Of a stretch of 52,803 nucleotides of DNA, positions 568 to 52,803 are shown piece by piece. The stretch is from a virus. The DNA is taken from the IMG/VR virus record IMGVR_UViG_3300006880_000005, positions 1 to 52,803 of that record; one strand, given 5' to 3'. The notes below the pieces were generated by a model. The model did not search any database, was not told the origin of the DNA, and saw nothing but the letters and a program-made list of their open reading frames with translations. A program made the position numbers and the translations under genes. Numbering within the stretch: position 1 is the stretch's first letter; every line of letters begins with the position of its first letter.

Positions 568-2796
568 ATGGGCGACATTTCGACAGTCAGCGGTCAAATC
601 ACGGGCGGCGATGAGTTCAGCGGTTTACTGGTGAGCCCCACACAGGGCAACGCCGCCGGGGAGCAATACGGCGCCAGAATCAACAACGCTGGCGTTTCTG
701 GCGGCTCTGGTATGAGTTCGTTTATTCCGTTGGCATTCCACGGCGGGGCGCTCAACAATTACAAATCAACCATCTGGATCAGCCCAGACCTTAACCGACC
801 GGGCATCAATTCGGGCTTTGTCGTGACCGTAGTTCCGCCCGATTTTGGCGCTGTCTTTGCCGGCAATATCGGCATACTCAACAGCAGCCCGCAGGCGGCA
901 TTACACGCGGGCGCGGGGGCGGATGCACCCTCGACGCCAAACACGGTCATATACGCCAGCAAGAGCGGACAGACAGGGCTTGCGGTCAGGGACAGCAGCA
1001 ACAATATCGAGCTTGGGATGATTGCCGGCACTACTTTGGCCAGCTTGGGCACAGTTACCAATCATAGCCTGCAAATCCTCATCAACAATACCGAGCGCAT
1101 GAGGATCACGACGGGCGGTTTTGTCGGCATTGGCACCACGGCGCCTATCACCCCGCTGCACATCGAACAGGATGGCGTCAACAATTACATTTTGCTTGGC
1201 GCGTATGGTTCCGGGTTTGATTCAAAGCTACTCCTCTACACAGCCAACGGCACTCAGGCGGCGCCCACGGCGACCCAGATGGGCGATGTGATCGGATCGG
1301 TCTATTTCCAGGGCTACGATACCGCCCGTTCAACCGGCGCTCGCATCTATGGCATCGCACCTGCCAACTGGGGCACCGCCGGCGACACCACCGACAACCC
1401 GACCGATATTCGATTCGCCACTACACCCGATGGCGCCGGGCTATTGTCGGATCGCATGGTGATTGATTCCGATGGCATGGTCGCCATTGGGCTGCAAGTC
1501 GGTGTGGCGACGGCGATTTATGATCTTGAGGTCATTAAAGATGCGCCCAACGCAACGCTGTTTTTGGGTGGGTTTTCGTCCACAGGGCTTGGCGGCTGCG
1601 GGACCGTGCGCCTGTTCGGGGCGCGGGGCTCATATCTCAGCTCCCCAGCAGCGAACCAGGCAGGCGACAGATTTGGCGAGATCGATTTCATGGGGTGGGA
1701 CGGCAACGGCAGGACAATCGGCGGGGCCATCTATGCGCAGGCGGCGGCGGCATGGGGGAGCAGCGGAGATACCAGCGACGCGCCGACCGATTTGTATTTT
1801 GCGACGGCGGCGGATGGAAGCGAAACGGTTGTTGATCGCATGGTGGTCAAGAGCACAGGTAAGGTTAGGATTGGCGCTACTCAGCACACAGATGATGCGC
1901 TCATGCACATCGGGGCCGGCGCCAATAGCCCTGTCTATCTGGGCAGTTACCCGCTCCTCTACTTGGCAGACGAAGGCGTTGCGAAAATCCAGATCACCAG
2001 CGGCGAGCTTGGGGATTATGCAATGCTGGAAATGTACGCAGACGGCGCGGCCGGGACAACTACAATCGGCACGCTTTACCCTCACCCGTTGATCGTGATA
2101 GCGAACGATCACGAAATCGCCCGCTTTGAATACAGCGGCGATCCAGAGACGGAAAAATTGATTGTCCACGAGGATTTGCACGTCAATAACCAAGTCTACA
2201 TCTATGCGGGGCACGATGACATTACGCCCGCTGATTTCGAGGATGCGCGCTCGCTTAACTTCGCCAAAGAGGATCAGCATATCGCTTGGCGAAGCGAGTT
2301 TACAGGGGAGAGCAAAACGATCATCGGCTGGGATGGGGTAGATATACTTGAAGGCGGGGACTATCACATCACCTCTGGCATTGTGGACATGCTCAAGCTC
2401 AAGGATGACGAAAAATTCATGAGCGTGTTCTTGGGCGGGGAAACACCAGAGGGCACGCTACATGTTTCTAACTGGTTGCCGGGTTCTGGTCCACAAGCCG
2501 GCGGCTGGGTAACAAAAGCTATCACCATGTCTGGCTCAGGCGGCTATGCGCTGTTGACGGGGGGCGCTGACTCCTCATCAGTTCAATACGCATTCATTGG
2601 CCACGCTGTTGTCAGACGGCTATCAGGCGGGGGAGTTATCGCCGTGACCTTGAACGTTGCCGATGGCAGCCCGCAGGTTGTGACCACAGATACGGGCAAT
2701 AGCGTTACATTCAGCGTGTCTAGTTTTTCGTTGATTGTCACCCGTTCGGCAGGTTCGGGATCGTTTGATGTTGCGATCTCGGGGCTGTTCATGTAG
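568..2796 (+). CDS. Tail fibre / host-recognition protein (paralogue of 49561 gene)
   Basis: 742 aa, low-complexity Gly/Ala/Thr-rich sequence typical of trimeric fibres. Residues about 175-200 carry the NTERMRI...GFVGIGT module that also occurs in the 939-aa fibre at 49561. Two tandem ~120-residue repeats follow (about 190-310 and 316-438), each with a GDTxDxPTD segment, a DRMV motif and an xIG end. The start ATG is preceded by AGGGGGC at 557-563. The protein probably forms part of the distal fibre that contacts the cell surface, working beside the SGNH hydrolase upstream. It is the last gene of the late operon and is followed by a strong terminator. No C-terminal intramolecular chaperone domain was recognised. 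Confidence 0.8.
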   Translation: MGDISTVSGQITGGDEFSGLLVSPTQGNAAGEQYGARINNAGVSGGSGMSSFIPLAFHGGALNNYKSTIWISPDLNRPGINSGFVVTVVPPDFGAVFAGNIGILNSSPQAALHAGAGADAPSTPNTVIYASKSGQTGLAVRDSSNNIELGMIAGTTLASLGTVTNHSLQILINNTERMRITTGGFVGIGTTAPITPLHIEQDGVNNYILLGAYGSGFDSKLLLYTANGTQAAPTATQMGDVIGSVYFQGYDTARSTGARIYGIAPANWGTAGDTTDNPTDIRFATTPDGAGLLSDRMVIDSDGMVAIGLQVGVATAIYDLEVIKDAPNATLFLGGFSSTGLGGCGTVRLFGARGSYLSSPAANQAGDRFGEIDFMGWDGNGRTIGGAIYAQAAAAWGSSGDTSDAPTDLYFATAADGSETVVDRMVVKSTGKVRIGATQHTDDALMHIGAGANSPVYLGSYPLLYLADEGVAKIQITSGELGDYAMLEMYADGAAGTTTIGTLYPHPLIVIANDHEIARFEYSGDPETEKLIVHEDLHVNNQVYIYAGHDDITPADFEDARSLNFAKEDQHIAWRSEFTGESKTIIGWDGVDILEGGDYHITSGIVDMLKLKDDEKFMSVFLGGETPEGTLHVSNWLPGSGPQAGGWVTKAITMSGSGGYALLTGGADSSSVQYAFIGHAVVRRLSGGGVIAVTLNVADGSPQVVTTDTGNSVTFSVSSFSLIVTRSAGSGSFDVAISGLFM

Positions 2797-2825
2797 GGAG
2801 CGCAGACATAACCATCCACACGGAA

Positions 2826-2852
2826 AAGCCCCAGGTCACTCGCCTGGGGCTT
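2826..2852. terminator. Bidirectional rho-independent terminator
   Basis: A perfect 10-bp stem AAGCCCCAGG / CCTGGGGCTT with a 7-nt loop lies between convergent genes. A T-rich tract follows on the plus strand (TTCTACCTTCC) and a TTTT tract on the minus strand, so it can end both the late rightward operon and the leftward operon. Confidence 0.9.
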
Positions 2853-2876
2853 CTACCTTCCTTCCGTCCTTACGAA

Positions 2877-3443
2877 TCATACTCCCATTGAATCGACAAT
2901 CAGTTGACGAAGTTCCGCCATTGCTTTTTGATATGGCGGCCCTTTACTTTTGAGATCAACGCTCCATAGTTCGCCCACAATATCAGTGAACGTCGCGCCG
3001 CTGCCCAACATCTGTTTAACCCGTGCGGCGCGGGCGTCGGGTGCTATTTCATCAATCTCATCAATGGCCGCTCGCTCTTGCTCGTTATCTTCTGGCTCAT
3101 AGACCTGCCGCATGGCCTGGTCAAGCGGGTAGCCATAGCGCACCATAAGAGAGACAAGATTGGGCTTGGGCTTCCAGTCCGCGATAATGTCCAACAGATG
3201 ATGAACAGCATCCAGCTGCTTATCATCTAAGCTGAACCATTCTCCGTGTGAGCGGTATTGATTCAATTGACCATGCAAGAAACGTTCCGCCCATCTTGGA
3301 TCATCGCAGTGAACAGAGCGAACCAACTCAAGCGGGACCGGCGAGCCGATCCGTAAATTTTCCAGTCGGGCATCTGCTGAGGTTGCAATGCCAACCTTGT
3401 ACAAATCCATGTCGCAAGCCTTGACAACATAAAGGTAACCCAT
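2877..3443 (-). CDS. GIY-YIG superfamily (T5orf172/MUG113-like) protein with C-terminal tail domain
   Basis: 188 aa. The N-terminus reads MGYLYVVKA...YKVGIA...RLENLRIGSP, the pattern of the T5orf172/Meiotically-up-regulated-113 branch of GIY-YIG nucleases, with later conserved AERFLH and GEWF segments in the first ~80 residues. Such domains cleave or bind DNA. Residues about 135-188 resemble the C-terminal 50 residues of the adjacent ATPase (VKQxxxxGxTxTDIxxExW then KG..YQ/WQ.A..EL), suggesting a shared small DNA- or protein-binding tail. The start has a strong AGGAGA upstream. Only 12 bp separate it from the ATPase gene, so it is the last gene of that operon. Confidence 0.75.
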   Translation of the reverse strand: MGYLYVVKACDMDLYKVGIATSADARLENLRIGSPVPLELVRSVHCDDPRWAERFLHGQLNQYRSHGEWFSLDDKQLDAVHHLLDIIADWKPKPNLVSLMVRYGYPLDQAMRQVYEPEDNEQERAAIDEIDEIAPDARAARVKQMLGSGATFTDIVGELWSVDLKSKGPPYQKAMAELRQLIVDSMGV

Positions 3444-3455
3444 ATGATTATTCTC

Positions 3456-4832
3456 CTAATCTGGAATCAGCGAACGTAAAATCTGGTTCAACTCGACTGA
3501 TGCTGCCTGCCATGCCCTGCCCTTCTGCGTAATTCCCCACACTTCCGAGATAATATCCGTCTGTGTCTTGCCGGCTTTGAATAACTGTTTGACGTGCGCG
3601 GCCTCTGGCGTGGCCGGTTCCGGCGCAACCTGCCATGTCATTGCGGGAATCGGCTCGATAACCGACACCGGACCCGGGTTCGGAACCGGCTCTACCACCT
3701 GAGACGGAAAACAAATACGCAGATCCGCCTCCGTCGTGTTCGGGATGGCGAGTGTAACCGGCTCGGCGCGTGTCGGCACAAAAATAGACTGGCCCGGCTG
3801 CAAAAACGGAACCGTGTCGAGCAGCTTGCGATCTGGAATCAAACGCTGCACGGCGTCTTTGTCTGCCCGCAACACATAGCGCCCGACGAAGGCTTTGCGC
3901 AGGCTGGCATCGCCACCCGTGCGCCCCATCTCGGCAGACTGGCCGGCGGCAAAGACGAACATGCCCACCTTGCGCCCGCGCTCGGCTATGCGTGCGAGGT
4001 CAGCGGCGAAGTCTTTGCCATAGTCGTCAATCAGCATGTTGACCTCATCTACCGCCAGAATGCGGATCGGCCATTCCTGGGGCGGGTTCGGTGTGTTGAT
4101 TCGCTCGGCCATCAGGTGTAGAAAATAGTGCATCGCCTGCTCTATCGGCTTGTCGTCTATGGCTGGCTCGAATAGCTGGTAGGCGGATAGTGGCTGAAGC
4201 GCCGTCGCTAATCCTTCGTTGGTGTGGCCGTGTGGGTCGATGATGCCCACCTGTGCGCCCATCATGCACGCTTGCGCTACTAGATAGCGCTCCAGTGTGG
4301 TTTTGCCACCGCCCGACTTGGCAATGATTAGCGTGCTGAACACATCTTTCAATGTGCCAAAGTAGGGCTGGTTGTCGTGGTAGCCGCACAATAGGCGATC
4401 TGGGCTGATGATGCCCTGCTGATGCAACTGGCTAAACGAGGGCACAATCTGGGCTGCTGGCCCGGCAAGCATGGCCGGTTCCGCTCCGGCTCCGCCATTG
4501 TTTTCAACATGCCAGTGCAAGGTATGAGGCACATTGGCGGGCGCTTGCATAGTCGCCACATGCGCCAACGCTAGATGAAATTGTGCTTGTCTCGCGTCGG
4601 TAAGTTCCGCCCGCGCGATGCGAATTTCGCCGGGGCGCACGATCACAAACGCAACATCAGCTTGCTGTCGGTCGAGGTCAATCCACTGTTGGCGCAAACG
4701 AACAACCTGTTCGCAGACCGCCACGACGCCGCGCCAGACAGAGCCACAGGCCAAGCGGAGGAGGAGGATCACTACGACCGCAACCAGAGCGACGATAATC
4801 AATGCGGGTAGATTGTCCAAGATGTAATTCAT
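3456..4832 (-). CDS. Membrane-anchored FtsK/HerA-like ATPase
   Basis: 458 aa. Residues about 7-28 form one hydrophobic membrane segment. A P-loop GGGKTT lies at about 174-179, and a Walker B strand ending VDE at about 261-263 is followed by AERGRKVG, typical of the FtsK/HerA/VirD4 pumping-ATPase superfamily. These proteins move DNA or regulate its transfer at the membrane. The start at 4832 is preferred over longer versions because it has GGGGTGA just upstream and begins right before the membrane segment. The last 50 residues match the tail of the downstream GIY-YIG protein. It follows a 2-TM protein and an RHH regulator under their own promoter. FtsK-like ATPases are unusual phage cargo and are commoner on plasmids and integrative elements. 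Confidence 0.8.
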   Translation of the reverse strand: MNYILDNLPALIIVALVAVVVILLLRLACGSVWRGVVAVCEQVVRLRQQWIDLDRQQADVAFVIVRPGEIRIARAELTDARQAQFHLALAHVATMQAPANVPHTLHWHVENNGGAGAEPAMLAGPAAQIVPSFSQLHQQGIISPDRLLCGYHDNQPYFGTLKDVFSTLIIAKSGGGKTTLERYLVAQACMMGAQVGIIDPHGHTNEGLATALQPLSAYQLFEPAIDDKPIEQAMHYFLHLMAERINTPNPPQEWPIRILAVDEVNMLIDDYGKDFAADLARIAERGRKVGMFVFAAGQSAEMGRTGGDASLRKAFVGRYVLRADKDAVQRLIPDRKLLDTVPFLQPGQSIFVPTRAEPVTLAIPNTTEADLRICFPSQVVEPVPNPGPVSVIEPIPAMTWQVAPEPATPEAAHVKQLFKAGKTQTDIISEVWGITQKGRAWQAASVELNQILRSLIPD

Positions 4833-4842
4833 TGTCACCCCC

Positions 4843-5076
4843 TCAACATGCTGTCGGATGTGTCCGACAAAATCCCGCTCGGTTGTGGTCAAGCTGTGTG
4901 TTGATACGATTGAGCGTCGAATGATAGCCGTCACGGTCAAGAGCAGCGCCACCCGAAACCATCACGAGCAACAACATGCCGACGACAAGCGCCCACACCA
5001 GGCAGCTAGAATTAAGTTCATCACGCTTCTGGTAGGCGGCCCAGCCGATGACAATAGCAGCGACAACAATAAACAT
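4843..5076 (-). CDS. Small two-TM membrane protein
   Basis: 77 aa with hydrophobic segments at about 1-15 and 25-45, and a polar C-terminal tail ending in TAC. It lies 10 bp upstream of the membrane-anchored ATPase and in the same transcript, so it may be a membrane partner of it. An upstream GAGGCGAGG-like sequence supports the start. No family recognised. Confidence 0.6.
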   Translation of the reverse strand: MFIVVAAIVIGWAAYQKRDELNSSCLVWALVVGMLLLVMVSGGAALDRDGYHSTLNRINTQLDHNRAGFCRTHPTAC

Positions 5077-5496: not shown

Positions 5497-5524
5497 ACAA
5501 AAAACCGGGCCATTGCTGACCCGG
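5497..5524 (-). terminator. Rho-independent terminator, minus strand
   Basis: On the minus strand CCGGGTC, AGCAAT loop, GGCCCGG is followed by a T-run (complement of 5504-5497). It lies just after the 110-aa gene and before the RHH promoter, so it separates the main leftward operon from the RHH/ATPase module. Confidence 0.85.
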
Positions 5525-5535
5525 CTCGTTTATAA

Positions 5536-5868
5536 TTATAGCGTTCTCTCCATCTCGTTATCCACAAGCTGAAGAATGGCGGGCTGAATCCCGCCACGCT
5601 GAGAGAGCCAACGTTTGCGCTCTTGTCCCAAAAACAGGCTAGTGTCTGGCCTAGTGCCCGATGCGTAAGATTCGGTCGCCTGATAAGCCGCCTCCTCGGC
5701 GCGTATCCCGCCATCAACCAGGGCAAGGAACTCAACAGCCGCTTTACGAGTCCTGAAATACCAGTAGCAGTCAGGATTGATTGGGCCGGTCCCGCTAAGG
5801 TCTGCCACCCAACCGGGGCGGCGCTCTGGGTCTACCTCTGTCCGCTTGAAAACTCGTTTGTCGCTCAT
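5536..5868 (-). CDS. Hypothetical 110-aa protein
   Basis: A charged soluble protein beginning MSDKRVFKRTE, with a central GWVADLSGTGP...WYFRTRKAAVEFLALVD segment resembling a small alpha/beta fold. No family recognised. It has an AGGGGA ribosome-binding site, starts 9 bp after the stop of the upstream 101-aa gene, and its own stop is followed by a terminator. It is thus the last gene of the transcript starting at the 6225-6253 promoter. Confidence 0.75.
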   Translation of the reverse strand: MSDKRVFKRTEVDPERRPGWVADLSGTGPINPDCYWYFRTRKAAVEFLALVDGGIRAEEAAYQATESYASGTRPDTSLFLGQERKRWLSQRGGIQPAILQLVDNEMERTL

Positions 5869-5877
5869 GTCATCCCC

Positions 5878-6183
5878 TTATAAATCGCTGTTTGGATCGT
5901 CCATCAACTGGCGAAACTGGCTGTACGATACGTTCTTGGGCAAAGTGGCGCTTACTGGCTTGCTGTCCTGTGCCGGCTGGTCATCAATGCGAATCTGAGC
6001 GCCAGCGGTCGAAAGCAGGCGATTGACCTTCTCAACATTCACGCGCCACGCCTTGCGGTCAGCAATCCATTTGCCGTCCATGTACGTCTTGATGTAGTCC
6101 TTGATAGCGAAAGTGTCGCCGGTCAGAGTGTCACCATTAAGCTGGAACTTGTTGCCTTTGCGGTCGGTTATATGAGTGGTCAT
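5878..6183 (-). CDS. Hypothetical 101-aa phage protein
   Basis: Begins MTTHITDRKGNKF. A middle segment IKDYIKTYMDGKWIADRKAW matches the short KxYxxGKWdxdxKaW pattern found in many small phage and plasmid accessory proteins of unknown function. The C-terminal part is acidic. A GGAGAAAA site precedes the ATG. It is the first gene after a promoter containing a palindromic operator (6225-6253), so it may be part of a separately regulated pair with the 110-aa gene. Confidence 0.75.
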   Translation of the reverse strand: MTTHITDRKGNKFQLNGDTLTGDTFAIKDYIKTYMDGKWIADRKAWRVNVEKVNRLLSTAGAQIRIDDQPAQDSKPVSATLPKNVSYSQFRQLMDDPNSDL

Positions 6184-6224
6184 CAGAATTTTCTCCGTTT
6201 GTGCTTGCCTGCTGAACTATCTAT

Positions 6225-6253
6225 ATTCTACGCTATATAGCGCATTTTGTCAT
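6225..6253 (-). promoter_or_regulatory. Promoter with palindrome in the spacer
   Basis: On the minus strand ATGACA (6253-6248), a 17-nt spacer and TAGAAT (6230-6225). The spacer contains the perfect 12-bp palindrome CGCTATATAGCG (6231-6242), a likely operator that would block polymerase binding. It drives the 101-aa and 110-aa genes. Confidence 0.75.
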
Positions 6254-6277
6254 CATCCTTTTGACGTATCTTTGCTG

Positions 6278-6399
6278 GCAAAAAATGCCCGGCCAGTGAG
6301 TTTCACCAGCCGGGACTTGCAAGTTCATGGCATCGCCATGAATCTATTTGGAGATGCCGGGGCTTTGCTTTGACGGGCTTGAGCCGTGGCGTCTCCCTA
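6278..6399 (-). ncRNA. Candidate structured small RNA (about 120 nt)
   Basis: Read on the minus strand this 377-bp gap holds a possible -10 box TACAAT (6411-6406) with a weak -35 box (TTATCG). Three hairpins then follow in order: GGAGACGCC/GGCATCTCC (6396-6388 with 6358-6350), an 8-bp perfect stem TTCATGGC/GCCATGAA with a 3-nt loop (6342-6324), and a terminator hairpin CCCGGC...GCCGGG ending in TTTTTT. No protein-coding potential was seen. It does not match an RNA family I recognise. It could be a regulatory RNA, an antisense RNA or a processed 3' UTR of the upstream gene. Confidence 0.55.
6280..6314 (-). terminator. Rho-independent terminator, minus strand
   Basis: On the minus strand CCCGGC (6314-6309), extended by complementary bases inside the loop, pairs with GCCGGG (6293-6288) and is followed by a six-T run (complement of 6285-6280). 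Confidence 0.85.
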
Positions 6400-6560
6400 C
6401 CCTAGATTGTACTGTTACCAACATCACTCGATAACGCACGATTGACGGTTGATTGAACACGGTCACGATTGCTGGACGACTGCCCTGACATTGCGCCGGG
6501 TGGATTTGGTTGGTACTGCTATGTCAACGCCCAGATGAGGCGGCTTGACCTTCAGTCAAA

Positions 6561-6758
6561 CTATTCTACCTTACGCACCACAACAATATCGCCGTTGAGT
6601 GGGTTCAAAAACGCCGCCGCATCGCCAGCATTTTGCGGCTCAAACTGTTGCCACATGGTTCGCTTGTCGCGGAACCAGGCAATTGCATCTGCCGCCGTCT
6701 CAAATTCGAGTGATTCCAAAAAACGCCGATTGTTCTCAGGATAGAAATAGCCAAACAT
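6561..6758 (-). CDS. Hypothetical 65-aa protein
   Basis: Begins MFGYFYPENNRRF and contains FETAADAIAWFRDKR, a small alpha/beta-type sequence. No family recognised. The start at 6758 is chosen because an AGAGGAGA site lies 6 nt upstream; a longer in-frame reading runs into a neighbouring gene. It begins 10 bp after the stop of the lipoprotein-like gene, so it is co-transcribed with it. Confidence 0.7.
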   Translation of the reverse strand: MFGYFYPENNRRFLESLEFETAADAIAWFRDKRTMWQQFEPQNAGDAAAFLNPLNGDIVVVRKVE

Positions 6759-6768
6759 GGGATCTCCT

Positions 6769-7263
6769 CTATCTTCCACACGCCTGATAATCGTGGTCAG
6801 CGAACATGCAGCTACCAACGATAGGCAGCCACCACGGCGACCCAAAGGCGATAACTGGCGGCTTGGTCGACACCGGTGTGGCTGTCGGCGTAACCGTCTG
6901 CGTTGGCGTCGGTGTGATTGTCCAGGTGGCGGTAGGTGTGGAGGTTGCGAAGTCTGCGCAGACCGCCGAACGATCACCAGGCCACTCCTCACCAGCCACA
7001 CCCAGCGCCGTACAGCCTGACAGCGGACGCGGCGCACTTGTGGCCCAATGATACAACGCGATAGCCTCATTCGCATTACTGGCGATGTCGTAGGGCGCTT
7101 GTGTGCCCTTCCACTGCTCCGCCTGGTCAATGCAATCGGGTTGATTATAGGACGCCGTGCCGAGGTTGCATTCTGGCCAGCCGCTATCGGCGTAGGCTAT
7201 GATGGCGGAGCAAGCGACGATGAGCGTCAACAACGCGCAGAGTAAGATAGTTTTAATCAACAT
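6769..7263 (-). CDS. Secreted or lipoprotein-like protein with Pro/Thr-rich linker
   Basis: 164 aa. Starts MLIKTILLCALLTLIVACSA, a signal sequence with a possible lipobox (IVAC). The mature part has several Cys residues (probable disulfides). A Thr/Pro-rich stretch at about 105-135 resembles the linkers of secreted bacterial surface proteins, and a C-terminal hydrophobic patch contains WWLPIVGSC. The start is set at 7263 because GGGGGAGGG lies upstream and TAATG overlaps the upstream stop. It is likely exported from the lysogen, perhaps altering the cell surface as a lysogenic-conversion factor. That role is inference. Confidence 0.65.
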   Translation of the reverse strand: MLIKTILLCALLTLIVACSAIIAYADSGWPECNLGTASYNQPDCIDQAEQWKGTQAPYDIASNANEAIALYHWATSAPRPLSGCTALGVAGEEWPGDRSAVCADFATSTPTATWTITPTPTQTVTPTATPVSTKPPVIAFGSPWWLPIVGSCMFADHDYQACGR

Positions 7264-7706
7264 TATGCAACCCTCCCCCAGATGAGCGGAATCATGTATG
7301 GCTGACAGTGAAACCCGAACGTCTCCCCGAGGATGCCAGGCGGCCGTGTTTGCGCGCTCCAATCCGTGATGTAGAAGTCATTGCTCCTGAATCGCATCTG
7401 GTAGACATGGCTAGTATCGAGTCCTGTGGCCGCGCCCTGATAATCGATCTCATCAGGCGTGTTGACCGTTGGCACCATAACATGGTCCGTGAATCTGTTG
7501 GCCGTCGTGTCGAACAGAACGGCATAGAGCCGGGGATATGTGGGCGGCGGCATGTCGCCATCCATACAGCGGACGATCAGTAGAAAGTGGATGCAATCGG
7601 CGGCGCCCTCGCAGGGATCTTCGGCGCCATGCGGCGGAAAGATAGGCCCGGGACGGAACGCAGTACAAAAGACGAAGACGCAGAACAACAAAACGAACTT
7701 GAACAT
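7263..7706 (-). CDS. Secreted hypothetical protein, 147 aa
   Basis: Begins MFKFVLLFCVFVFCTAFRPG, a clear signal peptide. The mature domain is beta-rich, with four Cys residues and a central VYQMRFRSNDFYITDWS segment resembling a fibronectin/Ig-type strand pattern. It is followed by the second secreted gene with a TAATG stop/start overlap, so the two are translationally coupled and may act together outside the membrane. A GGAGGG site precedes the ATG. No family recognised. Confidence 0.7.
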   Translation of the reverse strand: MFKFVLLFCVFVFCTAFRPGPIFPPHGAEDPCEGAADCIHFLLIVRCMDGDMPPPTYPRLYAVLFDTTANRFTDHVMVPTVNTPDEIDYQGAATGLDTSHVYQMRFRSNDFYITDWSAQTRPPGILGETFGFHCQPYMIPLIWGRVA

Positions 7707-7741
7707 TATGACCCTCCAGTGAACAAAAAAAGACGTTTGCT

Positions 7742-7844
7742 CTCGCTGGAAGGCTGGGCTATACTGTCGATAGCCACGGCCCGCTGCTCACACCAGCGAG
7801 GTTATGGTTAGTCTTGGGTGAGTGCGCAATCACTTGCCCAAGAC
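7742..7844 (-). other. Two strong adjacent RNA structures in an intercistronic gap
   Basis: On the minus strand the first is a 14-bp stem (two G-T pairs) with a 6-nt loop formed by 7844-7811. The second is enclosed by CTCGCTGG/CCAGCGAG (7800-7793 with 7749-7742) and has an inner GGCTAT/ATAGCC stem. A seven-T run follows about 10 nt later (complement of 7731-7725). It may be an attenuator, processing site or small RNA between the 165-aa gene and the secreted pair. No ORF was seen. Confidence 0.55.
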
Positions 7845-7852
7845 GTTGAGCA

Positions 7853-8350
7853 CTAGGTTAAATTTGACTCTAAATCTTCCACATCATCGAAGGAGTCACC
7901 GACTATTTCCCGCAGGGCTGCGAATCCCTCAACAGCCCCGCCCGCTTTCATTGCCAACATTTGTTCTGCCATGTTTGTAGGGGGTTCTGCCGTTCCCGCC
8001 ATGATACGTAGCTCGTGCAACTCCGCATTGGCGGCGGCAAGCTTGGTGGCGAGGTCGTCACGTTCGGTGCGCAACCGAGCCTCCGTCAGGACATCGGCAC
8101 CTACCAGCGTCAACAGTTGGTCAATCTCCAACCGCAACCGCCCAATCTCAGCCGATGCGATTGTCAATTGCCGATTCGCCTCGTCACGTTCCGACTCATA
8201 TCCAACCGCCCTGTTTTCCAACTCCTGGTATGCCGCACTCAACTCGGCATAGTTGGCGTTGAGTTCGGCAATGGTTTCCCGCAATTCGGCCACGATGCGG
8301 GCTAATCCAAATGCCGATTGTGATACTAGCTGGCTATATGCTTCGCTCAT
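7853..8350 (-). CDS. Coiled-coil protein, 165 aa
   Basis: Starts MSEAYSQLVSQSAFG (GGGGGAG upstream). Residues about 15-115 are a long Glu/Leu/Ala/Arg heptad-rich coiled coil (AELRETIAELNANYAELSA... and ERDDLATKLAAANAEL). A short acidic C-terminal region follows (GDSFDDVEDLES). No catalytic motif. It lies inside the leftward early operon; structural or scaffolding roles are possible, but no family is recognised. Confidence 0.75.
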   Translation of the reverse strand: MSEAYSQLVSQSAFGLARIVAELRETIAELNANYAELSAAYQELENRAVGYESERDEANRQLTIASAEIGRLRLEIDQLLTLVGADVLTEARLRTERDDLATKLAAANAELHELRIMAGTAEPPTNMAEQMLAMKAGGAVEGFAALREIVGDSFDDVEDLESNLT

Positions 8351-12267: not shown

Positions 12268-12792
12268 TCATCCGGCGACCGGCAAACGACCATTGACCGA
12301 CTTCGCCAACTGATCCATGTTGTCCATCCCGGTGTTGTCCTGCCCACTCCGCAGGTTGACTGGAGCAGAAACCCCCAACACTCGCTCAAATTTCCCGATC
12401 ATCGATTGTCCGCCCAGCCGGGCCACGTCCCGCCAAAGTGATAACCACTCGCTCTCCTGAATTGCCCGTTGATCAACCAGCCGGTTAACCAGCTTCCACA
12501 CCAGTTCAATATCACCCTCTGGCAACTGTGCCAGGGATTGCGTCAACTCTTGTAGTTGGTGTGGCTGCTCAAACCCTAGTAGGTAGTCAGGGGTGACACC
12601 TAGCATCTCCGCCATGATCACGAGCAAGCTGACCGATGGCTCATTCACGCCGCGCTCAATTGCCGAAATGTGCGACTGACCCAGCTTGCGCCCCGTGCGC
12701 CTGGTGAGTTCACTCGCAAACTTCCGCTGGGATGGGTAGAGCTTCTCCCTAACTTCTCGAAATAACTCCGGTTGAAAACCTCGCTTGTGCAT
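12268..12792 (-). CDS. XRE-family phage repressor (CI-like)
   Basis: 174 aa (one codon longer if the adjacent ATG at 12795 is used). Residues about 5-65 form an XRE/Cro-CI helix-turn-helix (RKFASELTRRTGRKLGQSHI...SAIERGVNEPS), followed by EMLGVTPDYLLG, typical of the family. The C-terminal ~100 residues are a helical region without the S24 peptidase/LexA-like Ser-Lys dyad, so induction by RecA-driven self-cleavage is not expected. GGAGG precedes the start. It is divergent from a Cro-like gene, and four 19-bp operators at PL and PR are its obvious targets. Keeps the prophage silent; inducer unknown. Confidence 0.85.
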   Translation of the reverse strand: MHKRGFQPELFREVREKLYPSQRKFASELTRRTGRKLGQSHISAIERGVNEPSVSLLVIMAEMLGVTPDYLLGFEQPHQLQELTQSLAQLPEGDIELVWKLVNRLVDQRAIQESEWLSLWRDVARLGGQSMIGKFERVLGVSAPVNLRSGQDNTGMDNMDQLAKSVNGRLPVAG

Positions 12793-12823
12793 CATGCCTC
12801 CGCATCAAAAATTTAAGGTACGC

Positions 12824-13162: not shown

Positions 13163-14137
13163 TCACCTGCGGGTCAACGGGCTGGTGATGTGTGTTCGCA
13201 AGTCGTCCGCATCCATCAAGTTGTACCCAGCAGTCTCCCGAAAATGCTTGTGTCCCAACTGACGGCGCAGAATATCAGCATAGATGCTCCCCGGATGTAG
13301 TTTGGTGAAGTGAGTAGTAAACGCCCGGCGTAAATCATGGCAACCTTGAATCCGATCATCCAAACCGGCTCGACTGGCCGCAACCTTGACAATCTTGTAC
13401 AGGGCGATAGCGGCCAGTCGTTGCCCGTCATGTTTGCGTCGAAAAATCGGGCCGGTGTCAATGCCGGATTCTACCAGATGACACGCCAAATAGGACATGG
13501 TGACGGAATCAAGCGCAACTTGACGCTTACCGCTCCGGTTGGCTTTGGTGCGCTTGCCGGTTATGTCTGCCAGTCCAGTCCCATCAGCGCAGAACGCTAT
13601 ATGTTCTACATCCAACCGGGCGCATTCGGTACGCCGCAATCCCGCGCCGATGAACAAGGCCAGGATCGCTTGATTTCTTGCCGGCGCGATGGATTGTCCT
13701 GCGCATTCCATCAAGCGCTCAAGCTGGGCCAGCGTGGTCGCTATTCGCCTGGTCGACTCGCCATCGGGCGCGGGAAACCACATGCGACAATTGACGCCGA
13801 TCCGGTTGGTGTCAAAGGCCCATTTCAGAGCGGAGCGCAAAACCCGCATCGCATTGTAACGAGTGCTGTAGGCTAGTGGCTTCTTTCGCTTGCTCGGGAC
13901 GGTGCGCAAGTGGAGTTCAAAAGCGGAGCATAGAGAGGGTGTTAATCGCCAGTTGCGGATCGGACCAACACATTCCCACCATTGCCGAAAGTAAAGCAGC
14001 TTTTCGCGATAGCCCGATATGGTGTAGGCATCGCATGAAAGTGAGCAATGTTGTAACCAGCGGTCAAGCAAATCGCCAAGACGCCTACCGTCAATCGCAT
14101 CTTCATCGGGATCAAGACGGATCTCATAAACGCTCAT
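13163..14137 (-). CDS. int: Tyrosine recombinase / integrase
   Basis: 324 aa. N-terminal SAM-like domain at about 20-115. The catalytic core shows GAGLRRTE (Arg168), a TGKRTK beta-hairpin region (Lys), HDLRR (His267, Arg270), LGHKH (His296) and the tyrosine in ETAGYN (Tyr305), so all catalytic residues appear present. Integrates and excises the phage at an att site. The start at 14137 has GAGGTGG upstream and overlaps the stop of a 20-codon leader reading frame. Orientation is convergent with cro. attP probably lies in the 14200-14597 gap, but I could not identify its core. Confidence 0.93.
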   Translation of the reverse strand: MSVYEIRLDPDEDAIDGRRLGDLLDRWLQHCSLSCDAYTISGYREKLLYFRQWWECVGPIRNWRLTPSLCSAFELHLRTVPSKRKKPLAYSTRYNAMRVLRSALKWAFDTNRIGVNCRMWFPAPDGESTRRIATTLAQLERLMECAGQSIAPARNQAILALFIGAGLRRTECARLDVEHIAFCADGTGLADITGKRTKANRSGKRQVALDSVTMSYLACHLVESGIDTGPIFRRKHDGQRLAAIALYKIVKVAASRAGLDDRIQGCHDLRRAFTTHFTKLHPGSIYADILRRQLGHKHFRETAGYNLMDADDLRTHITSPLTRR

Positions 14138-14196
14138 AGGCCACCTCGCCGGGGAGCAATGGAGACAACGGGGGCGGGGCCATCTGCAAAGAACAT
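14134..14196 (-). CDS. Possible 20-aa leader peptide of the integrase gene
   Basis: MFFADGPAPVVSIAPRRGGL with TGGAGG 6 nt before the ATG, a better ribosome-binding site than that of the integrase itself. Its TGA overlaps the integrase ATG (ATGA). It probably tunes integrase translation by coupling. There is no independent evidence that the peptide matters. Confidence 0.45.
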   Translation of the reverse strand: MFFADGPAPVVSIAPRRGGL

Positions 14197-14597
14197 AGAT
14201 GACCTCCATTTGTAAATAGGTTTGTTGGAAGGTCATCAAAATAACATCGCTTATCGAGGGGAGCAAAAAAGAGAGTTTACGACGATTGCGGTAACGAATG
14301 TAAAGAGCATGATCGTTTGCTTGCAACATTGTGAAATTTCTGTGAAGTCACCGTGACCCACATGAAAAGCCCCGCATCGGCAGTTGATACGGGGCACAGC
14401 AAATGGATAAACGAGGCGTACATGGTGGGGAAACATCGGGGACACTGGCTATAGGCAACACTCCTTTGATCATAAGGTCTTGTATGTTGCATATCCGGTG
14501 ACGACACTTTCCACCCTCCATCGTAGCACACTTTCCAGTAAATAGCATTAGAGATTTTCGTGATTGTCCGGCTTTTTTAATCTGGTACTCACAAATT
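14197..14597. other. 401-bp noncoding gap; candidate attP/regulatory region
   Basis: No convincing gene. It holds an inverted repeat GATGACCT (14198-14205) / AGGTCATC (14230-14237) around AT-rich sequence, the 11-bp palindrome GTCACCGTGAC (14347-14357) and a minus-strand terminator hairpin (14365-14395). An upstream source for a minus-strand transcript ending there is not obvious. Being next to the integrase, this is the likeliest place for attP. Confidence 0.45.
14365..14395 (-). terminator. Terminator-like hairpin, minus strand
   Basis: On the minus strand GCCCCGTATC (14395-14386) pairs with GATGCGGGGC (14378-14369) with one mismatch, followed by TTTT. It may end a short minus-strand RNA starting before 14600 or shield the integrase from readthrough. 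Confidence 0.6.
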
Positions 14598-14885: not shown

Positions 14886-14962
14886 GTGACCAATCACAAT
14901 TCTTACTTGCCGTGTCGCTGCTGATCGGGCTGTGGTTGCTGGCTGAGGCGATGGGGCTATGA
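14882..14962 (+). CDS. 26-aa single-TM micro-protein
   Basis: MSDQSQFLLAVSLLIGLWLL AEAMGL: a polar N-terminus and one hydrophobic helix. It fits exactly between two ATGA overlaps, with the 95-aa gene and the methylase gene, so it is almost certainly translated. It could be a small regulator of a membrane protein or a toxin-like peptide; no family known to me. Confidence 0.55.
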   Translation: MSDQSQFLLAVSLLIGLWLLAEAMGL

Positions 14963-15543
14963 ATGCAGCACAAATGATCAACCAGACATCAGGTAGGGTC
15001 GAATACTACACACCCGCCAACATCATCGAGGCCGCACGCCGCACGATGGGCGGGATCGACCTGGACCCGGCCAGCAGTTACCGAGCAAACTTGATCGTGC
15101 GAGCTACAGACTATTTTACTGAACAAGACGACGCGTTAGGCCGGGTGTGGCGGGGCAGGGTGTGGATGAATCACCCGTTTGGCCGCCAGAGTAACCCGGC
15201 GTGGATCTTCAACCTCGTTGACCACTACCGCCGAGGGCTAGTCACACAAGCGTGCTGTATCACGTTCGCTTGCACCAGTGAAGAATGGTTCGGGCCGCTG
15301 TTTGATTATCCGATGTGTTTTCTCAGACCACGAACCAACTACATCGGGCCGGACGGTAAGACGGTGCGAGGTGTGACGAAAGGCTCAGTTGTAACCTACC
15401 TGGGGCCGCACTACACCGATTTCATGGAGAATTTCGAGCCACTTGGCAAGGTCGTCTTTCCGGCATCCATGTGGCGGCAAAGAGCACTCAACCACACTTG
15501 TGATCTGCGTGAGGCTGTGGAGATGGCAAAGGCATCCACATGA
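14959..15543 (+). CDS. Phage Dam-like N6-adenine methyltransferase
   Basis: 194 aa. YYTPANIIEAARRTMGGIDL DPASS matches the phage DNA N-6-adenine-methyltransferase (Dam, PF05869-type) family, with dDALGRVWRGRVWMNHPFGR where the family has MNPPY. The catalytic motif at 71-74 is NHPF instead of NPPY, an unusual second position. The enzyme would methylate adenine in phage DNA, protecting it from host restriction or marking replication. The start overlaps the upstream TGA and its stop overlaps the next ATG. Confidence 0.85.
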   Translation: MNAAQMINQTSGRVEYYTPANIIEAARRTMGGIDLDPASSYRANLIVRATDYFTEQDDALGRVWRGRVWMNHPFGRQSNPAWIFNLVDHYRRGLVTQACCITFACTSEEWFGPLFDYPMCFLRPRTNYIGPDGKTVRGVTKGSVVTYLGPHYTDFMENFEPLGKVVFPASMWRQRALNHTCDLREAVEMAKAST

Positions 15544-26220: not shown

Positions 26221-26249
26221 TTGCAATTCACGGATGGACGTGGTATGAT
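26221..26249 (+). promoter_or_regulatory. Consensus-like promoter
   Basis: TTGCAA (26221-26226), 17-nt spacer, TATGAT (26244-26249). Transcription would start near 26257 and meet the terminator at 26421, giving a transcript of about 200 nt. Confidence 0.65.
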
Positions 26250-26352: not shown

Positions 26353-26652
26353 CCCGCTCTACCCATAAGTGCCCGCTCTGGTACGCCCAGACCCGGCAAA
26401 TTGTAAACGGTCACAGCCCTACGCTCTCACCATATCGGTGAGGGCGTTTTTTGTTTGTCCTGAAGGTGAGGAGTGCGTTAACACTCCCCACCCCTGCCCA
26501 GCGGAGGGTGAATTCCGCCAGACCACCACATTGTATACCGCATCGCCGCCAATGTCATTACGTAGTTTTGGCGACTTGCACGGGTGACGCAGTGATGCGG
26601 TGCAGACGCTACAGGGCCATACCTGCGCCCGGCTGACAACGACCATGATCAA
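26353..26652. other. 300-bp gap between early and CHAT/late genes
   Basis: Besides the terminator it contains the hairpin or operator GGAGTG-CGTTAA-CACTCC (26470-26487) and distant complementary arms CCGCATC/GATGCGG (26538-26544 with 26594-26600). No clear promoter or gene was found, so how the CHAT and late genes are started is not evident. Confidence 0.5.
26421..26458 (+). terminator. Rho-independent terminator of the early right operon
   Basis: ACGCTCTCACC and GGTGAGGGCGT arms (11 bp) with an ATATC loop, followed by TTTTTTGTTTG. Confidence 0.93.
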
Positions 26653-27465
26653 ATGCGTGTATTTGCGGCCGCTCCACACCATGCCGATCTGCCTGATGTC
26701 ACAATCGAGGTCAGTGCGATTGATCGCCATCATCAGGCGGTCATTTGTCGCGGCTATGTGGATGAAGCCACGATCACTGAAAAGCTTGAAAAGTTCCTTG
26801 AGAACGGCCCGGTTGATGTGTTTGTTTGGGCTACGCATGGCAATCGTGAGGGGATGCTGCTCAGCACGGGCATTTTACCGACAAGCGGCGTGCGTCAGTA
26901 TCAGCGGCGTAGCCGTTGTCGCTTGGCTATCCTCAACACCTGCGAGAGCGAAGACGTAGCGCGCTCGGTCATGATCGGCGGCAGTGCCGACATGATCTGC
27001 ACAGTCGGCCAGATTGACAACCAAGACGCTATCCGCCTGGGCTCGTTGCTCATGGCGGAGCTGGCCAAAACAGACGATTTTTACGAAGCGTATCACGTCA
27101 TCGATCCAGATGACGGCACTTATAAATATTTACAGGCGAAGGCGATCACAAAAACGTTCGACTCGCCACGAAAACGACTTATGCCGGACGAAGCAACAGA
27201 ACTGCGCCAGGCCATTGACCAGTTGCGCCAATCAATGAATACGTCAACCGTGACCATGACCGAACTAAAGGGCACCATGTCAATGAACAACGCCCTGACT
27301 CAAAAGTCAATGGATTCGCTTGTTGAGCAATTTACTGTTTTTAAGGCGCAGCTTGCAGCAAGGGCTCCGATATGGATCGCCTACTTGACTGTTATTTTTC
27401 TTGCCGTCATTGCTTTTGCCGTAACTATCGTCAGCGTTGTTTTAATCTCCCAGAGGGGCGGATGA
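26653..27465 (+). CDS. Membrane-anchored CHAT-domain (caspase-like) protease
   Basis: 270 aa. VDVFVWATHGNREGMLLSTG (His62) and RCRLAILNTCESED (Cys97), followed by GGSADMICTVGQIDNQDAIR...LAKTDDFYEAYHV, are the hallmark blocks of CHAT (caspase-HetF-associated with TPR) peptidases, including the His-Cys dyad. Residues about 180-235 are helical/coiled, and 240-265 a single C-terminal membrane helix (WIAYLTVIFLAVIAFAVTIV). CHAT proteases act in bacterial suicide and defence systems, usually fused to TPRs or sensors. Here the partner regions are missing and the protein is tethered to the membrane. It is coupled by ATGA to a 3-TM gene. Possible roles: superinfection exclusion, lysis or control of host death. 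The ribosome-binding site is weak. Confidence 0.8.
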   Translation: MRVFAAAPHHADLPDVTIEVSAIDRHHQAVICRGYVDEATITEKLEKFLENGPVDVFVWATHGNREGMLLSTGILPTSGVRQYQRRSRCRLAILNTCESEDVARSVMIGGSADMICTVGQIDNQDAIRLGSLLMAELAKTDDFYEAYHVIDPDDGTYKYLQAKAITKTFDSPRKRLMPDEATELRQAIDQLRQSMNTSTVTMTELKGTMSMNNALTQKSMDSLVEQFTVFKAQLAARAPIWIAYLTVIFLAVIAFAVTIVSVVLISQRGG

Positions 27466-27821
27466 GCCAGCTCATTACGCAGATCACCCTTTATGCCTAC
27501 CCGCTCTGGGCTCTAATCGCCTTCGGTATGGCTGTAGTCAGTTTTACCACATGGTTTTTTGTGGACCATGACCGCAAAACAATGTTGTGGGGCATCGTTT
27601 TCCTGGGTTGGTCGCTGGCGTTTTTTGGCGCCGGACTGCTCATTGCTCGTGTGGGCGACCCAAAGGTAATTGGACCTAGACTTGCGATAATCTGGATTAT
27701 GATTTTGCCAGTATTTGCCTATACGGTCGGACTGGAGTGTGTTCGGTTGTATCGAGTCCTGAAGATGATCGAGGCGATGCGCAAGCGGAGGGCCAAAGCA
27801 TATGGCAAATCTGACCGCTAA
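27462..27821 (+). CDS. Three-TM membrane protein coupled to the CHAT gene
   Basis: 119 aa. Hydrophobic helices at about 10-34, 41-63 and 72-95 and a basic C-terminal tail (RVLKMIEAMRKRRAKAYGKS). The start at 27462 overlaps the CHAT stop (ATGA). The helix count and size would suit a holin, but it is cotranslated with a membrane-anchored protease, so it may instead be its membrane partner or substrate. Confidence 0.75.
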   Translation: MSQLITQITLYAYPLWALIAFGMAVVSFTTWFFVDHDRKTMLWGIVFLGWSLAFFGAGLLIARVGDPKVIGPRLAIIWIMILPVFAYTVGLECVRLYRVLKMIEAMRKRRAKAYGKSDR

Positions 27822-34240: not shown

Positions 34241-34926
34241 ATGTGTGCGCCTGTTCAGCCTTCCGCAATTCAACCAGCTACCTGACGCGCTATTTCGTCC
34301 AAATGGCGGCGTTGCGGCGTGAGTTGGTCAAGCGTGGTGATAGTCTGCATCTCATCTTGTGCGAAGGCGACCACACAGACGCTACCCGTTCAATGTTGCC
34401 GGGGTGGCTGACTGACTTTGACTCGACGCTGATTCACTACGACCATGGCCAACCGAATTTTGGGAGCGTGGTCAACCTGGAACGCTTCGCAATGTTGGCA
34501 GGGGTGTGGAATCGCATTTGGGCACAGATACCAGAGGATGCGGACGCGGTGCTGTTTGTGGAGAGTGATTTGATTTGGCATCCAAATACCATGATGCGGC
34601 TGATTGACCACACGAGAGAATACCCGGCAATGGCACCAATGGTCATGTTGCAACGTGAAGGCTACCCAAGTGACGCCTACTATGATTGCTGGGGAATGCG
34701 CAAAGATGGCTTGCCGTTCAACCATCGCCCGCCCTACTTCCAGCCCTGGCCAGTTAGTGAGCCGGTGCGAATAGACGCCGCCGGCAGTTGCATGGCGATA
34801 CAGGGCGACATTGCCCGCCGCCTGATGTGGCCGGCTGAGGATGTGGTGCGCGGCGTGTGTCGGCAGATATACGAACTAGGCGGCTCAGTGTGGATTGATT
34901 CAGCCCTGGAGATATTTCACCCATGA
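34237..34926 (+). CDS. Glycosyltransferase, GT-A type (Anp1-like)
   Basis: 229 aa. [12 protein letters not shown]...[15 protein letters not shown], then [15 protein letters not shown] (the ESD replacing a DxD metal site), [19 protein letters not shown] and [14 protein letters not shown] match the Anp1/family-2-like glycosyltransferase fold. It probably glycosylates a virion or host-surface component. It overlaps both neighbours (ATGA) inside the head module, so it is a stable member of the operon. Confidence 0.8.
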
Positions 34927-35552
34927 TTTATGAGCCGGTTCTAATCCTAAAGCCTGAAATGGTAGGCATTGACGAAGACGCACGCGTTGATTCGTTCGTG
35001 AAAATTGAGGGCGGGCTAGGTGTATCCATTCGAGCCGGGACGCACGTAAGTTCGTTTGCTCACTTGAATATTGGGGGCGGCCTGTTGTGGGTTGGTGAGA
35101 ATGTGGCCATCGCTTCGGGCGCTCGCATCTTGAGCGGCACAAATACACCTGATGGGCGCTCTATGTCATCGGCGGCGCCTACGGAGATGCAGAGCATCAA
35201 GCGCACGCAAGTGAGGATAGACGACTTTGCTTTCGTTGGTGCCGGCGCAACCATCCTCCCCGGTGTGACCATCGGGCGCTATGCCGTCATCGGTGCCGGC
35301 GCTGTGGTTATTCACGATGTCCCACCCTACGCTATCGTGGCCGGTGTTCCTGCCCGGCAGATAGGCGATAGGCGGGAGCGCGAGGGCTGGACGTGGGGTG
35401 ACGGGGATGTGGAAGCGCCGCCGATGCCAAGCGCAATAGAGGTTGAGGCTGAAATCATCAAGCGGGGAATTCTCCGCAGGTTTAATCTGGAAGTGAGCGA
35501 CGAATACGCAAGAGCGTTTGCGGCATTCATAGGAGCTGAGTATGTCAACTGA
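34923..35552 (+). CDS. Left-handed beta-helix (hexapeptide) acyltransferase
   Basis: 209 aa. Repeated hexapeptides such as [64 protein letters not shown] are typical of O- or N-acetyltransferases acting on sugars. Paired with the preceding glycosyltransferase, it may decorate a sugar on a phage or surface glycan. Coupled by ATGA upstream and overlapping the protease/scaffold gene downstream. Confidence 0.88.
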
Positions 35553-38300: not shown

Positions 38301-39350
38301 ATGCGCCTGAATCTTCTAGGGTACGCCTGGCGAACCTATGACGGCTATGGCCGCTATGCAGCGCATATCATGCGGGCATTGCAGCGGGCAGGGGTGGAAG
38401 TTTCGCCCTTGCTCGTGGGTCATACTGAAATGCCGGGTTGGATGCAGCAGCAGCTAGGGATAGATTGGTCACGCCTGACAATCGCTTGCCTGCCTGCTTT
38501 GTATCTGCCTGGCATTCCCGGCCGCCACTGGTTGCTCACGATGACAGAGGGCAGCGAGATGCCTGACGGCTGGGTCGACATCATCAACCGGCGTAATCCA
38601 GAACGGGTGATAGTGCCCTGTGAGGCCAACGCCGAGACGTTCCGCAAGGGTGGCGTCAAAGCGCCTATCCATGTCATCCACGGTGGCACCGACCCTGACG
38701 AATTCCCGGTTATCGCCAAGTCAATACTCGATACTCACTACCCGCCACGACCCTACGCATTCCTGGCGCTGGCTGACAGGGGAGCCCGTAAAGGCTGGGC
38801 GGAAGTGTGGCAGGCGTTCTACCAGGCGTTTGGACGCCCACAGGACACCCCGGACGTGCGGCTGCTGATTAAGGTGCGGCCCAACTCGAACGATGTAACC
38901 GACCTAATCGCCAGAGCGGAGAATCCAGATCCACGGGTGCGCATCTGGACTGAAGATGTAGCAACCATGCGGGAAGTGTACGCCGCTTGTGACTGTTTCT
39001 GTTTCCCAAGTCGGTTTGAAGGCTGGGGAATGCCGCCGCGCGAGGCGGCAATGATGGGGTTGCCGGTTATTGTGCAACAGTGGAGCGGTATGGACGACGG
39101 ACACACCACCGAATGGGCGCAAGTGTTGCCGCTTGGCACGCTTGAGCGCATCCCAACGATCTTTGAAAACATCAAAGGCGACTGGATGAAGGCAGATGTA
39201 GGGGCGCTGGCCAAGACGATGCGATGGTGCTATGAGAATCCAGCCGAGGCGAGAGAGTACGGTGCTAATGCCGCCGCATGGTTGCGAGCCTGGCAGACGT
39301 GGGACCACGCCGCGGGTCGGCTGCTCAATCTCATCAAGGAGTGTGGATGA
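38301..39350 (+). CDS. Glycosyltransferase, GT-B type (family 4-like)
   Basis: 349 aa. RMxxN-terminal LLGYAWRTYDGYGRYAAHIM, ERVIVPCEANAETFRKGGVK, then PYAFLALADRGARKGWAEVW, LLIKVRP, and the signature CDCFCFPSRFEGWGMPPREA AMMGLPVIV. The E-x7-E-like catalytic region is intact. It lies between capsid and connector genes and its stop overlaps the connector ATG. Together with the genes at 34237 and 34923 this makes a small glycan-modification set inside the head genes. Confidence 0.9.
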   Translation: MRLNLLGYAWRTYDGYGRYAAHIMRALQRAGVEVSPLLVGHTEMPGWMQQQLGIDWSRLTIACLPALYLPGIPGRHWLLTMTEGSEMPDGWVDIINRRNPERVIVPCEANAETFRKGGVKAPIHVIHGGTDPDEFPVIAKSILDTHYPPRPYAFLALADRGARKGWAEVWQAFYQAFGRPQDTPDVRLLIKVRPNSNDVTDLIARAENPDPRVRIWTEDVATMREVYAACDCFCFPSRFEGWGMPPREAAMMGLPVIVQQWSGMDDGHTTEWAQVLPLGTLERIPTIFENIKGDWMKADVGALAKTMRWCYENPAEAREYGANAAAWLRAWQTWDHAAGRLLNLIKECG

Positions 39351-48848: not shown

Positions 48849-49568
48849 ATGATACAAGGCGACGGATACACTCTCTATTGTGGTGATTGTCTCAACGTGT
48901 TGCCGACGCTGGGCAAGGTGGATGCTGTGATCACTGACCCGCCTTATGGAATTAGCTATAAATCAGGGCCAATTAGTAAAAACAGTATCAGCACCACCGG
49001 CAAGCGGTTTAGTGTCGCCATCGAAGGTGACAATACACCGTTCGACCCTGAACCATTTTTACGGTTCCCGCTGGTTGCGTTTACGGGAGCGCAATATTTT
49101 TACGACAAATTACCCAAAGGTGGAAGCCTGCACTGTTGGGACAAAAGAGGAAACTATAAGGCGCTTGACCAGGCAGACGCCGATTTCGTGTGGATGTCCA
49201 AACGAAAAGCATCACGGGTTTTTCATCTGGTGTGGCGCGGCATCTGTAGGCACGCCGAACACGACCGAAAAATAGAGCATCCAACACAAAAACCAGAGTC
49301 CTTAATTGAATGGATATTTGAACTACTCGACATCGCCAGCGGAGATACCATATTTGACCCGTTCATGGGCAGCGGCACTACTGGGGTTGTCGCCTTACGA
49401 GCCGGATGCAATTTTATAGGCTGTGAAATCGACCCACATTACTTCACCATCGCTCACAAGCGCATCGCAGACGCCGCCAGAGCCGCCGCAGGGTTGCCCA
49501 AGCAACTATCGGGGCGTGTGGAAGACTACAGCGAATCGCCACTATTTGCGGGGGTTGCCAATGGATGA
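48849..49568 (+). CDS. Beta-class DNA methyltransferase (N6-A or N4-C)
   Basis: 239 aa. DAVITDPPYGI (motif IV at 30-33) comes first and IFDPFMGSGTTGVVAL (motif I near 168-178) last, the beta-class order, with IGCEIDP as motif II and HPTQKPESLIEWI as motif X region. The whole gene is compact and has no restriction partner, so it probably protects phage DNA. It sits between tail tip and tail fibre and overlaps the fibre gene by 8 bp. Confidence 0.93.
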   Translation: MIQGDGYTLYCGDCLNVLPTLGKVDAVITDPPYGISYKSGPISKNSISTTGKRFSVAIEGDNTPFDPEPFLRFPLVAFTGAQYFYDKLPKGGSLHCWDKRGNYKALDQADADFVWMSKRKASRVFHLVWRGICRHAEHDRKIEHPTQKPESLIEWIFELLDIASGDTIFDPFMGSGTTGVVALRAGCNFIGCEIDPHYFTIAHKRIADAARAAAGLPKQLSGRVEDYSESPLFAGVANG

Positions 49569-52395: not shown

Positions 52396-52803
52396 ATGCG
52401 AAACCTATGGATTGCTCTCTTTCTGCTCATTCTCCCACGGGGGAACACTGCCCAGCGCATTTTGTTTGTTGGTAATTCGCTGACAATTTCCCGCCCGGCG
52501 CCCGATCTGGGTTGGGGCGGACTGTGGGGCATGGCGGCGACACAGCCCGATCGGGATTATGCGCACAGGGTGCAATTGATGCTCACAGAGCGCCAAGGCG
52601 CCGCACCAGAGATAGCGATCATTGGCGCCGATCTGCATCGCTGGCAGAGCGCAAGTACAGAGATCGCCAGGGCAGCGCAGCGGCTTAAGCCCGATCTGGT
52701 GATCGTGCAAATGGGCGAACATGCCACCGCAGATACACCCTACGCTGATTTTCTGGCAGCCTACAGCCAGATTGCAGAATGGACACCCGGCGCCCGCCAT
52801 ATT
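52396..52803 (+). CDS. SGNH/GDSL hydrolase, N-terminal part (continues at 1-352)
   Basis: Reads MRNLWIALFLLILPRGNTAQ, a signal-peptide-like hydrophobic start, then ILFVGNSLT (Ser28 of the GDSL block), a region with GAAPEIAIIGADLHRW, and VIVQMGEH as block III. The protein runs off the window end and continues in frame at base 1 through the 70-bp overlap; the entire protein has 229 aa. A possible -10 box (TAAAAT, 52384-52389) lies 6 bp before the ATG. It probably deacetylates surface or peptidoglycan sugars during attachment or release. A secretion signal on it would be unusual for a virion enzyme. Confidence 0.8.
   Translation, partial: MRNLWIALFLLILPRGNTAQRILFVGNSLTISRPAPDLGWGGLWGMAATQPDRDYAHRVQLMLTERQGAAPEIAIIGADLHRWQSASTEIARAAQRLKPDLVIVQMGEHATADTPYADFLAAYSQIAEWTPGARHI

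Follow-up and report, generated by a model that had tools for sequence, protein, structure and literature searches.

Why should a phage carry a caspase-like protease domain of the CHAT type, fix it to a membrane and couple its gene to that of a second membrane protein at the very start of the late genes? Caspase-like proteases, CHATs among them, are best known from bacterial immunity, in which they serve the host as executioners; if the reading developed here is true, a phage-owned, stripped-down, membrane-fixed CHAT with a membrane partner would be the same weapon turned the opposite way. The stretch of DNA that we analysed (the window) is an entire viral record of 52,803 bp. Its first 70 bases are an exact repeat of its last 70 (1-70 and 52734-52803), and because both ends carry this identical repeat the genome is most likely complete, at ~52.73 kb, and either circular or circularly permuted. 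Two further viral contigs overlap the phage at 99.98-100% identity, both of them stopping short of the CHAT gene. A split gene for an SGNH-like hydrolase with a signal-peptide-like start (52396 to the end, and on to 352) joins across the repeat.

The two genes at the center of this question are listed with their surroundings in Table 1. With codon usage trained on the phage, the 270-aa and 119-aa frames score 0.237 and 0.222 bits per codon, respectively, and every other frame is negative; since usage is positive in the annotated frames only, we regard both ORFs as real genes. The TGA stop of the first (27463-27465) shares bases with the ATG of the second (27462-27464) in an ATGA overlap, and the 3-TM gene in turn overlaps the beta-helix gene that follows (start 27802), forming a unit of at least three genes. 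The ATG at 26653 is the first start codon past the upstream in-frame stop and has no clear ribosome-binding site, while such a site is present at the 3-TM and beta-helix starts. One strongly hydrophobic segment is found in the 270-aa protein, close to its C-terminus, and three in the 119-aa protein, which ends in a tail of charge +8. An earlier note on this DNA had described just such an ATGA-coupled pair, with a single C-terminal membrane helix in the first product and a three-helix second product, in a temperate phage; the ORF coordinates, hydropathy and codon usage agree with this description of the pair, and the integrase and HTH regulator with that of the phage.

Table 1. Coordinates of the gene pair and of neighboring features in the window.
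Feature	Position	Strand	Remarks
HTH regulator	12271-12795	minus	Lysogeny gene
Integrase	13163-14329	minus	Lysogeny gene
Intrinsic terminator, strong	26421..26455	+	11-bp stem and T run; -19.5 kcal/mol, z -5.5; closes replication block, upstream of CHAT gene
Mini-CHAT protein (predicted), 270 aa	26653..27465	+	Core ~11-148 (His62, Cys97), linker ~176-235, C-terminal membrane helix ~236-262
Three-TM protein, 119 aa	27462..27821	+	Cationic C-terminal tail; ATGA-coupled; topology resembles class I holin
Right-handed beta-helix protein, 556 aa	27802..29472	+	Pfam Beta_helix, E 7e-9; start overlaps 3-TM gene
2-TM protein, 56 aa	29487..29657	+	Holin-like candidate between beta-helix gene and terminase; below usual size cut-off; no family match above cut-off

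Sequence searches of Pfam, PHROGs, NCBIfam and the PDB reported no CHAT relationship for the 270-aa protein, and the Pfam CHAT model PF12770 gave no reported match in the phage genome. We therefore relied on our own profiles, one of 18 and one of 59 domains, made from CHATs of Planctomycetota genomes. The 18-domain profile scores the phage core at 9.8 bits (E 5.8e-5), against 6.9 bits for the best of 5000 shuffles and 5.5 bits for the next best of the ~418 open frames in the window, and HHalign with the same profile returns an E of 1.2e-5, the best of 150 shuffles reaching 0.016. With the 59-domain profile, which leans slightly towards the phage as part of that set was found via an alignment containing the phage sequence (a bias from which the 18-domain set is free), residues 12-147 align at 18.8 bits (E 4.5e-8; 0 of 5000 shuffles as high) and the HHalign probability is 93% (E 3.3e-7). 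The phage-CHAT alignment is colinear over residues 11-148 (~135 residues) with both dyad residues in register: His62, within VFVWATHGN, and Cys97, within LAILNTCES, occupy columns that hold His and Cys, respectively, in 100% of 58-59 CHATs. When the phage core is aligned with four CHATs, the resulting profile, which the CHATs dominate, also retrieves Csx29 from the PDB (E 7e-9).

Peptidase C14 (caspase/metacaspase) was ruled out as a better fit, as 110 of 5000 shuffles reach the phage score with its profile and its HHalign E is 0.002, compared with 1.2e-5 for CHAT. We take the CHAT likeness to be real because of the shuffle-calibrated profile and HHalign scores, the invariant dyad columns and this poorer C14 fit, and judge it very probable that the 270-aa protein carries a CHAT-type (caspase-like, clan CD) domain, as the earlier note had proposed from His62 and Cys97. 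A prohead protease was also considered and rejected, the protein being membrane-anchored and encoded far from the head genes.

The resemblance to ordinary CHATs is nonetheless partial. Agreement with them extends to 16 of the 49 columns that CHATs conserve, and Glu19, the ATHG block, the Cys-Glu pair and Gly110 are retained. The SLW.VD motif is lost, its near-invariant Trp being Gly119 and its Asp Asn123, and the sequence has no C-terminal YYW-like end. The N-terminal ~65-150 residues (mostly 80-120) of the Pfam domain are missing too: in nearly all measurable control CHATs the aligned region starts that far into the Pfam match, whereas only ~11 residues precede it in the phage protein. Compared with the CHAT peptidases of PF12770, including Csx29/TPR-CHAT of Craspase, the protein shares the clan CD catalytic half, with colinear HG and [S/N]xC[E] blocks and the His/Cys dyad, but lacks the N-terminal part of the domain, the TPR array and both the SLW.VD and YYW motifs, and is tail-anchored and phage-encoded. 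By these computations it appears to be a divergent, shortened half-CHAT with the dyad intact, followed by a linker and then a membrane helix, and the earlier description of a protein without TPR or sensor domains is upheld.

Protease activity could have changed in the phage protein, since the Trp and Asp of SLW.VD and the YYW motif are missing. It is highly improbable, in our judgment, that the domain is catalytically dead altogether, or that no CHAT exists here and the clan CD motifs are a chance resemblance. The silence of the curated libraries, the limited number of matching columns and the substitutions at Gly119 and Asn123 would all suit such an explanation, as would the structural predictions: AlphaFold, run on the single sequence without an alignment, reached a pLDDT of 44.7 and 47.0 in two runs (the linker is helical in this low-confidence model), and Foldseek found no significant matches with the low-confidence core model. 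A chance resemblance is difficult to reconcile, however, with calibrated profile and HHalign scores that hold both dyad residues in register over some 135 residues.

The position of the pair within the genome bears on its function. On the plus strand, the genes upstream encode a helicase, a Prim-Pol, a D5 primase, an exonuclease and a SLOG protein, followed by the strong terminator; from the CHAT gene on, the order is 3-TM, beta-helix, 2-TM, a small DUF5681-like protein (a match below the Pfam cut-off), terminase and portal, then the head and tail genes. Both genes thus open the late block, on the lytic strand and between the replication genes and the terminase, with the lysogeny genes on the opposite strand at 12-14 kb. 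This is where the S-R-Rz lysis cassette lies in lambda, and lysis genes are found at the corresponding place in many phages. Between the terminator and the CHAT gene lie 205 bp, in which no + strand promoter was detected. A promoter-like site with an extended -10 (26221-26249), by itself a chance-level match, is found ~170 bp ahead of the terminator and is reminiscent of late antitermination at lambda pR'/tR'. Matches to the integrase and primase show only 24-32% identity and are scattered over several phyla, and host assignment from them failed.

From N- to C-terminus, the loop charges of the 3-TM protein are 0, 0, +2 and +8, and by hydropathy and charge alone it fits the topology of a class I holin (three TM, N-out/C-in, cationic C-tail). 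No family match, holin families included, rose above cut-off in Pfam, PHROGs or NCBIfam. No endolysin was recognised beside the 3-TM gene or elsewhere in the complete genome, nor was a spanin recognised there. At the 56-aa ORF, codon usage on the + strand is positive in that frame only. We would treat the holin features of the protein and its locus as likenesses, not as proof.

These observations enabled us to propose a model in which the pair acts on the membrane late in infection. The model starts from what is observed, namely two overlapping genes at this position and a CHAT-type core with its dyad and a hydrophobic anchor, and in it we infer catalysis, orientation, partnership and timing. 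The CHAT domain, as a predicted tail-anchored cysteine protease, would face the cytoplasm from the inner membrane, and would be produced together with the late genes and act with the 3-TM protein. It may either cleave the 3-TM protein (or a host membrane protein) or be triggered by it, and the outcome would be a permeabilised membrane, or lysis that is timed, late in infection. A CHAT-type tail-anchored protein, coupled to a 3-TM protein and with a late membrane or lysis role, is our best explanation overall, although we hold it with less than even confidence. As to function in the narrower sense, a late module that kills at the membrane or controls lysis is what we tentatively favor, ahead of superinfection exclusion and counter-defence. 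A more specific version is doubtful, if attractive: a tail-anchored caspase-like CHAT might activate or control a holin-like protein, providing a phage-run execution that replaces or supplements the holin-endolysin-spanin cassette.

The evidence for late killing or lysis control comes from placement on the lytic strand behind the strong terminator, between replication module and terminase and opposite to the lysogeny genes, as well as from the N-out/C-in charges and cationic tail of the 3-TM protein, the nearby 2-TM holin-like ORF and the lack of a recognised endolysin in a complete genome. This last point is weak evidence, as profile searches can miss endolysins when the host is unusual. The lost SLW.VD residues and YYW motif also count against the proposal, as does the fact that conservation of the cassette was seen in no second genome, and a CHAT protease is not known from any phage lysis system. 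When set beside a lambda-type lysis cassette (holin, endolysin and spanin), the locus is alike in lying between replication and terminase genes and in encoding a 3-TM protein that is small and cationic at its tail, along with a 2-TM protein nearby; it differs in that neither an endolysin nor a spanin was recognised and a caspase-like protease is found instead. Bacterial gasdermins offer another comparison, since they are paired with caspase-like proteases whose genes lie beside that of the membrane-acting protein. The adjoining genes are common to both cases, whereas the partner in the phage is an integral membrane protein of three TM helices that matched no gasdermin.

For the pair, three functions are live, of which superinfection exclusion is a possible if less favored one. 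As an exclusion or abortive-infection module, the tethered CHAT would be inactive until a second phage is sensed via the 3-TM protein, and would then cleave a host or membrane protein and stop the cell. Such a mechanism could perhaps resemble CHAT-based defence, or exclusion by lambda RexA/RexB or by the prophage protease Lit. With the last two the likeness lies in a prophage-borne protease, or a soluble and a membrane protein paired, acting at the membrane; Lit belongs to the metalloproteases, RexB is a channel protein, and their families are unrelated to the phage CHAT pair. The integrase and HTH regulator are consistent with exclusion, the protease and membrane protein would suit a sensor-effector pair, and the terminator sets both genes apart from the replication block. 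Moreover, anti-phage defence employs CHAT proteases in Craspase/Csx29 and Borvo (PMC10952713; PMC10028731). With Borvo (PMC10952713) the common point is a CHAT protease in phage-host conflict; the phage case, in contrast, involves a coupled gene pair that is part of the late block of a phage, and PADLOC defence models gave no CHAT-type match, the sole match of the pair being a weak one to ZorA over the linker (E 0.008, 13 bits). Against exclusion, too, the pair opens the late block on the lytic strand, overlaps the next gene, lacks the terminator of its own that an independent defence cassette usually has, and is preceded by no detected + strand promoter in the 205-bp gap. Taken together, lytic strand, late-block start and the lambda lysis locus lean slightly to late lysis or killing rather than superinfection exclusion.

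A counter-defence or host-takeover protease, whose CHAT domain would, in the course of infection, cut an immune or membrane regulator of the host that the 3-TM protein recruits, seems unlikely. Some bacteria have very many CHATs, and a protease fold with few extra domains may have been acquired by the phage from this bacterial stock, but genes of this kind are usually expressed early and often clustered elsewhere, and no match suggests a target. We consider it less likely still that the genes form a toxin-antitoxin-like pair, with a membrane protease toxin restrained by the 3-TM protein and stabilising a prophage or episome. Two small coupled genes, both fitting phage codon usage, might be expected of such a pair, yet the 3-TM protein is unlike any known antitoxin and the genes are embedded in the late block.

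The search for relatives places the pair in a wider setting. Exact-peptide scans of viral and genome contigs found no orthologue of either protein, tblastn found none of either gene in phages, plasmids, 294 Planctomycetota and 396 Bacteroidota genomes, and the matches from degenerate motif scans were chance only. No relatives emerged when the conserved CHAT alignment was compared with viral contigs; the viral scans were built on short patterns, which could miss divergent copies. Among distant matches the best, L008, proved to be a genuine CHAT that forms part of a 972-aa open frame. Stand-alone mini-CHATs in Planctomycetota were rejected, as the short frames inspected turned out to be fragments of ordinary CHATs, most of them located at the end of a contig, and all lack a C-terminal membrane helix.

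On plasmids, classical CHATs are frequent, with 257 records. In the viruses searched they are almost absent, with one IMG/VR contig and, among 50,697 phages, one mislabelled bacterial record, and for this reason we describe the phage case as rare in the collections searched. The IMG/VR contig (L041) is the sole one found with the classical motif; it encodes an 884-aa TPR-CHAT (5518-8169, minus strand) and is possibly host DNA. Pairing the phage sequence with this one viral CHAT put His62 out of register, and we discarded that two-sequence alignment. The second record, MT838002.1 (L102, GenBank “Bacteriophage sp.”; TPR-CHAT at 2380-4740), was rejected as bacterial DNA because its neighbors, judged from their translations, are a subtilase, a sigma factor, a cysteine synthase and a serine acetyltransferase. 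The titles and abstracts searched, with subscription journals thinly covered, contained no phage CHAT protease.

Several further genes of this phage can be recorded here. The minus-strand block includes a HerA/FtsK-like ATPase (3456-4952) with two N-terminal membrane segments, which is unusual for a phage. Directly after the major capsid gene lies a glycosyltransferase (38301-39350) that matches Pfam “GT4-conflict”, and a hexapeptide acyltransferase-like gene is found at 34923-35552. Two DNA methyltransferase genes, of Dam-like and N6/N4 type, are located at 14959-15543 and 48849-49568.
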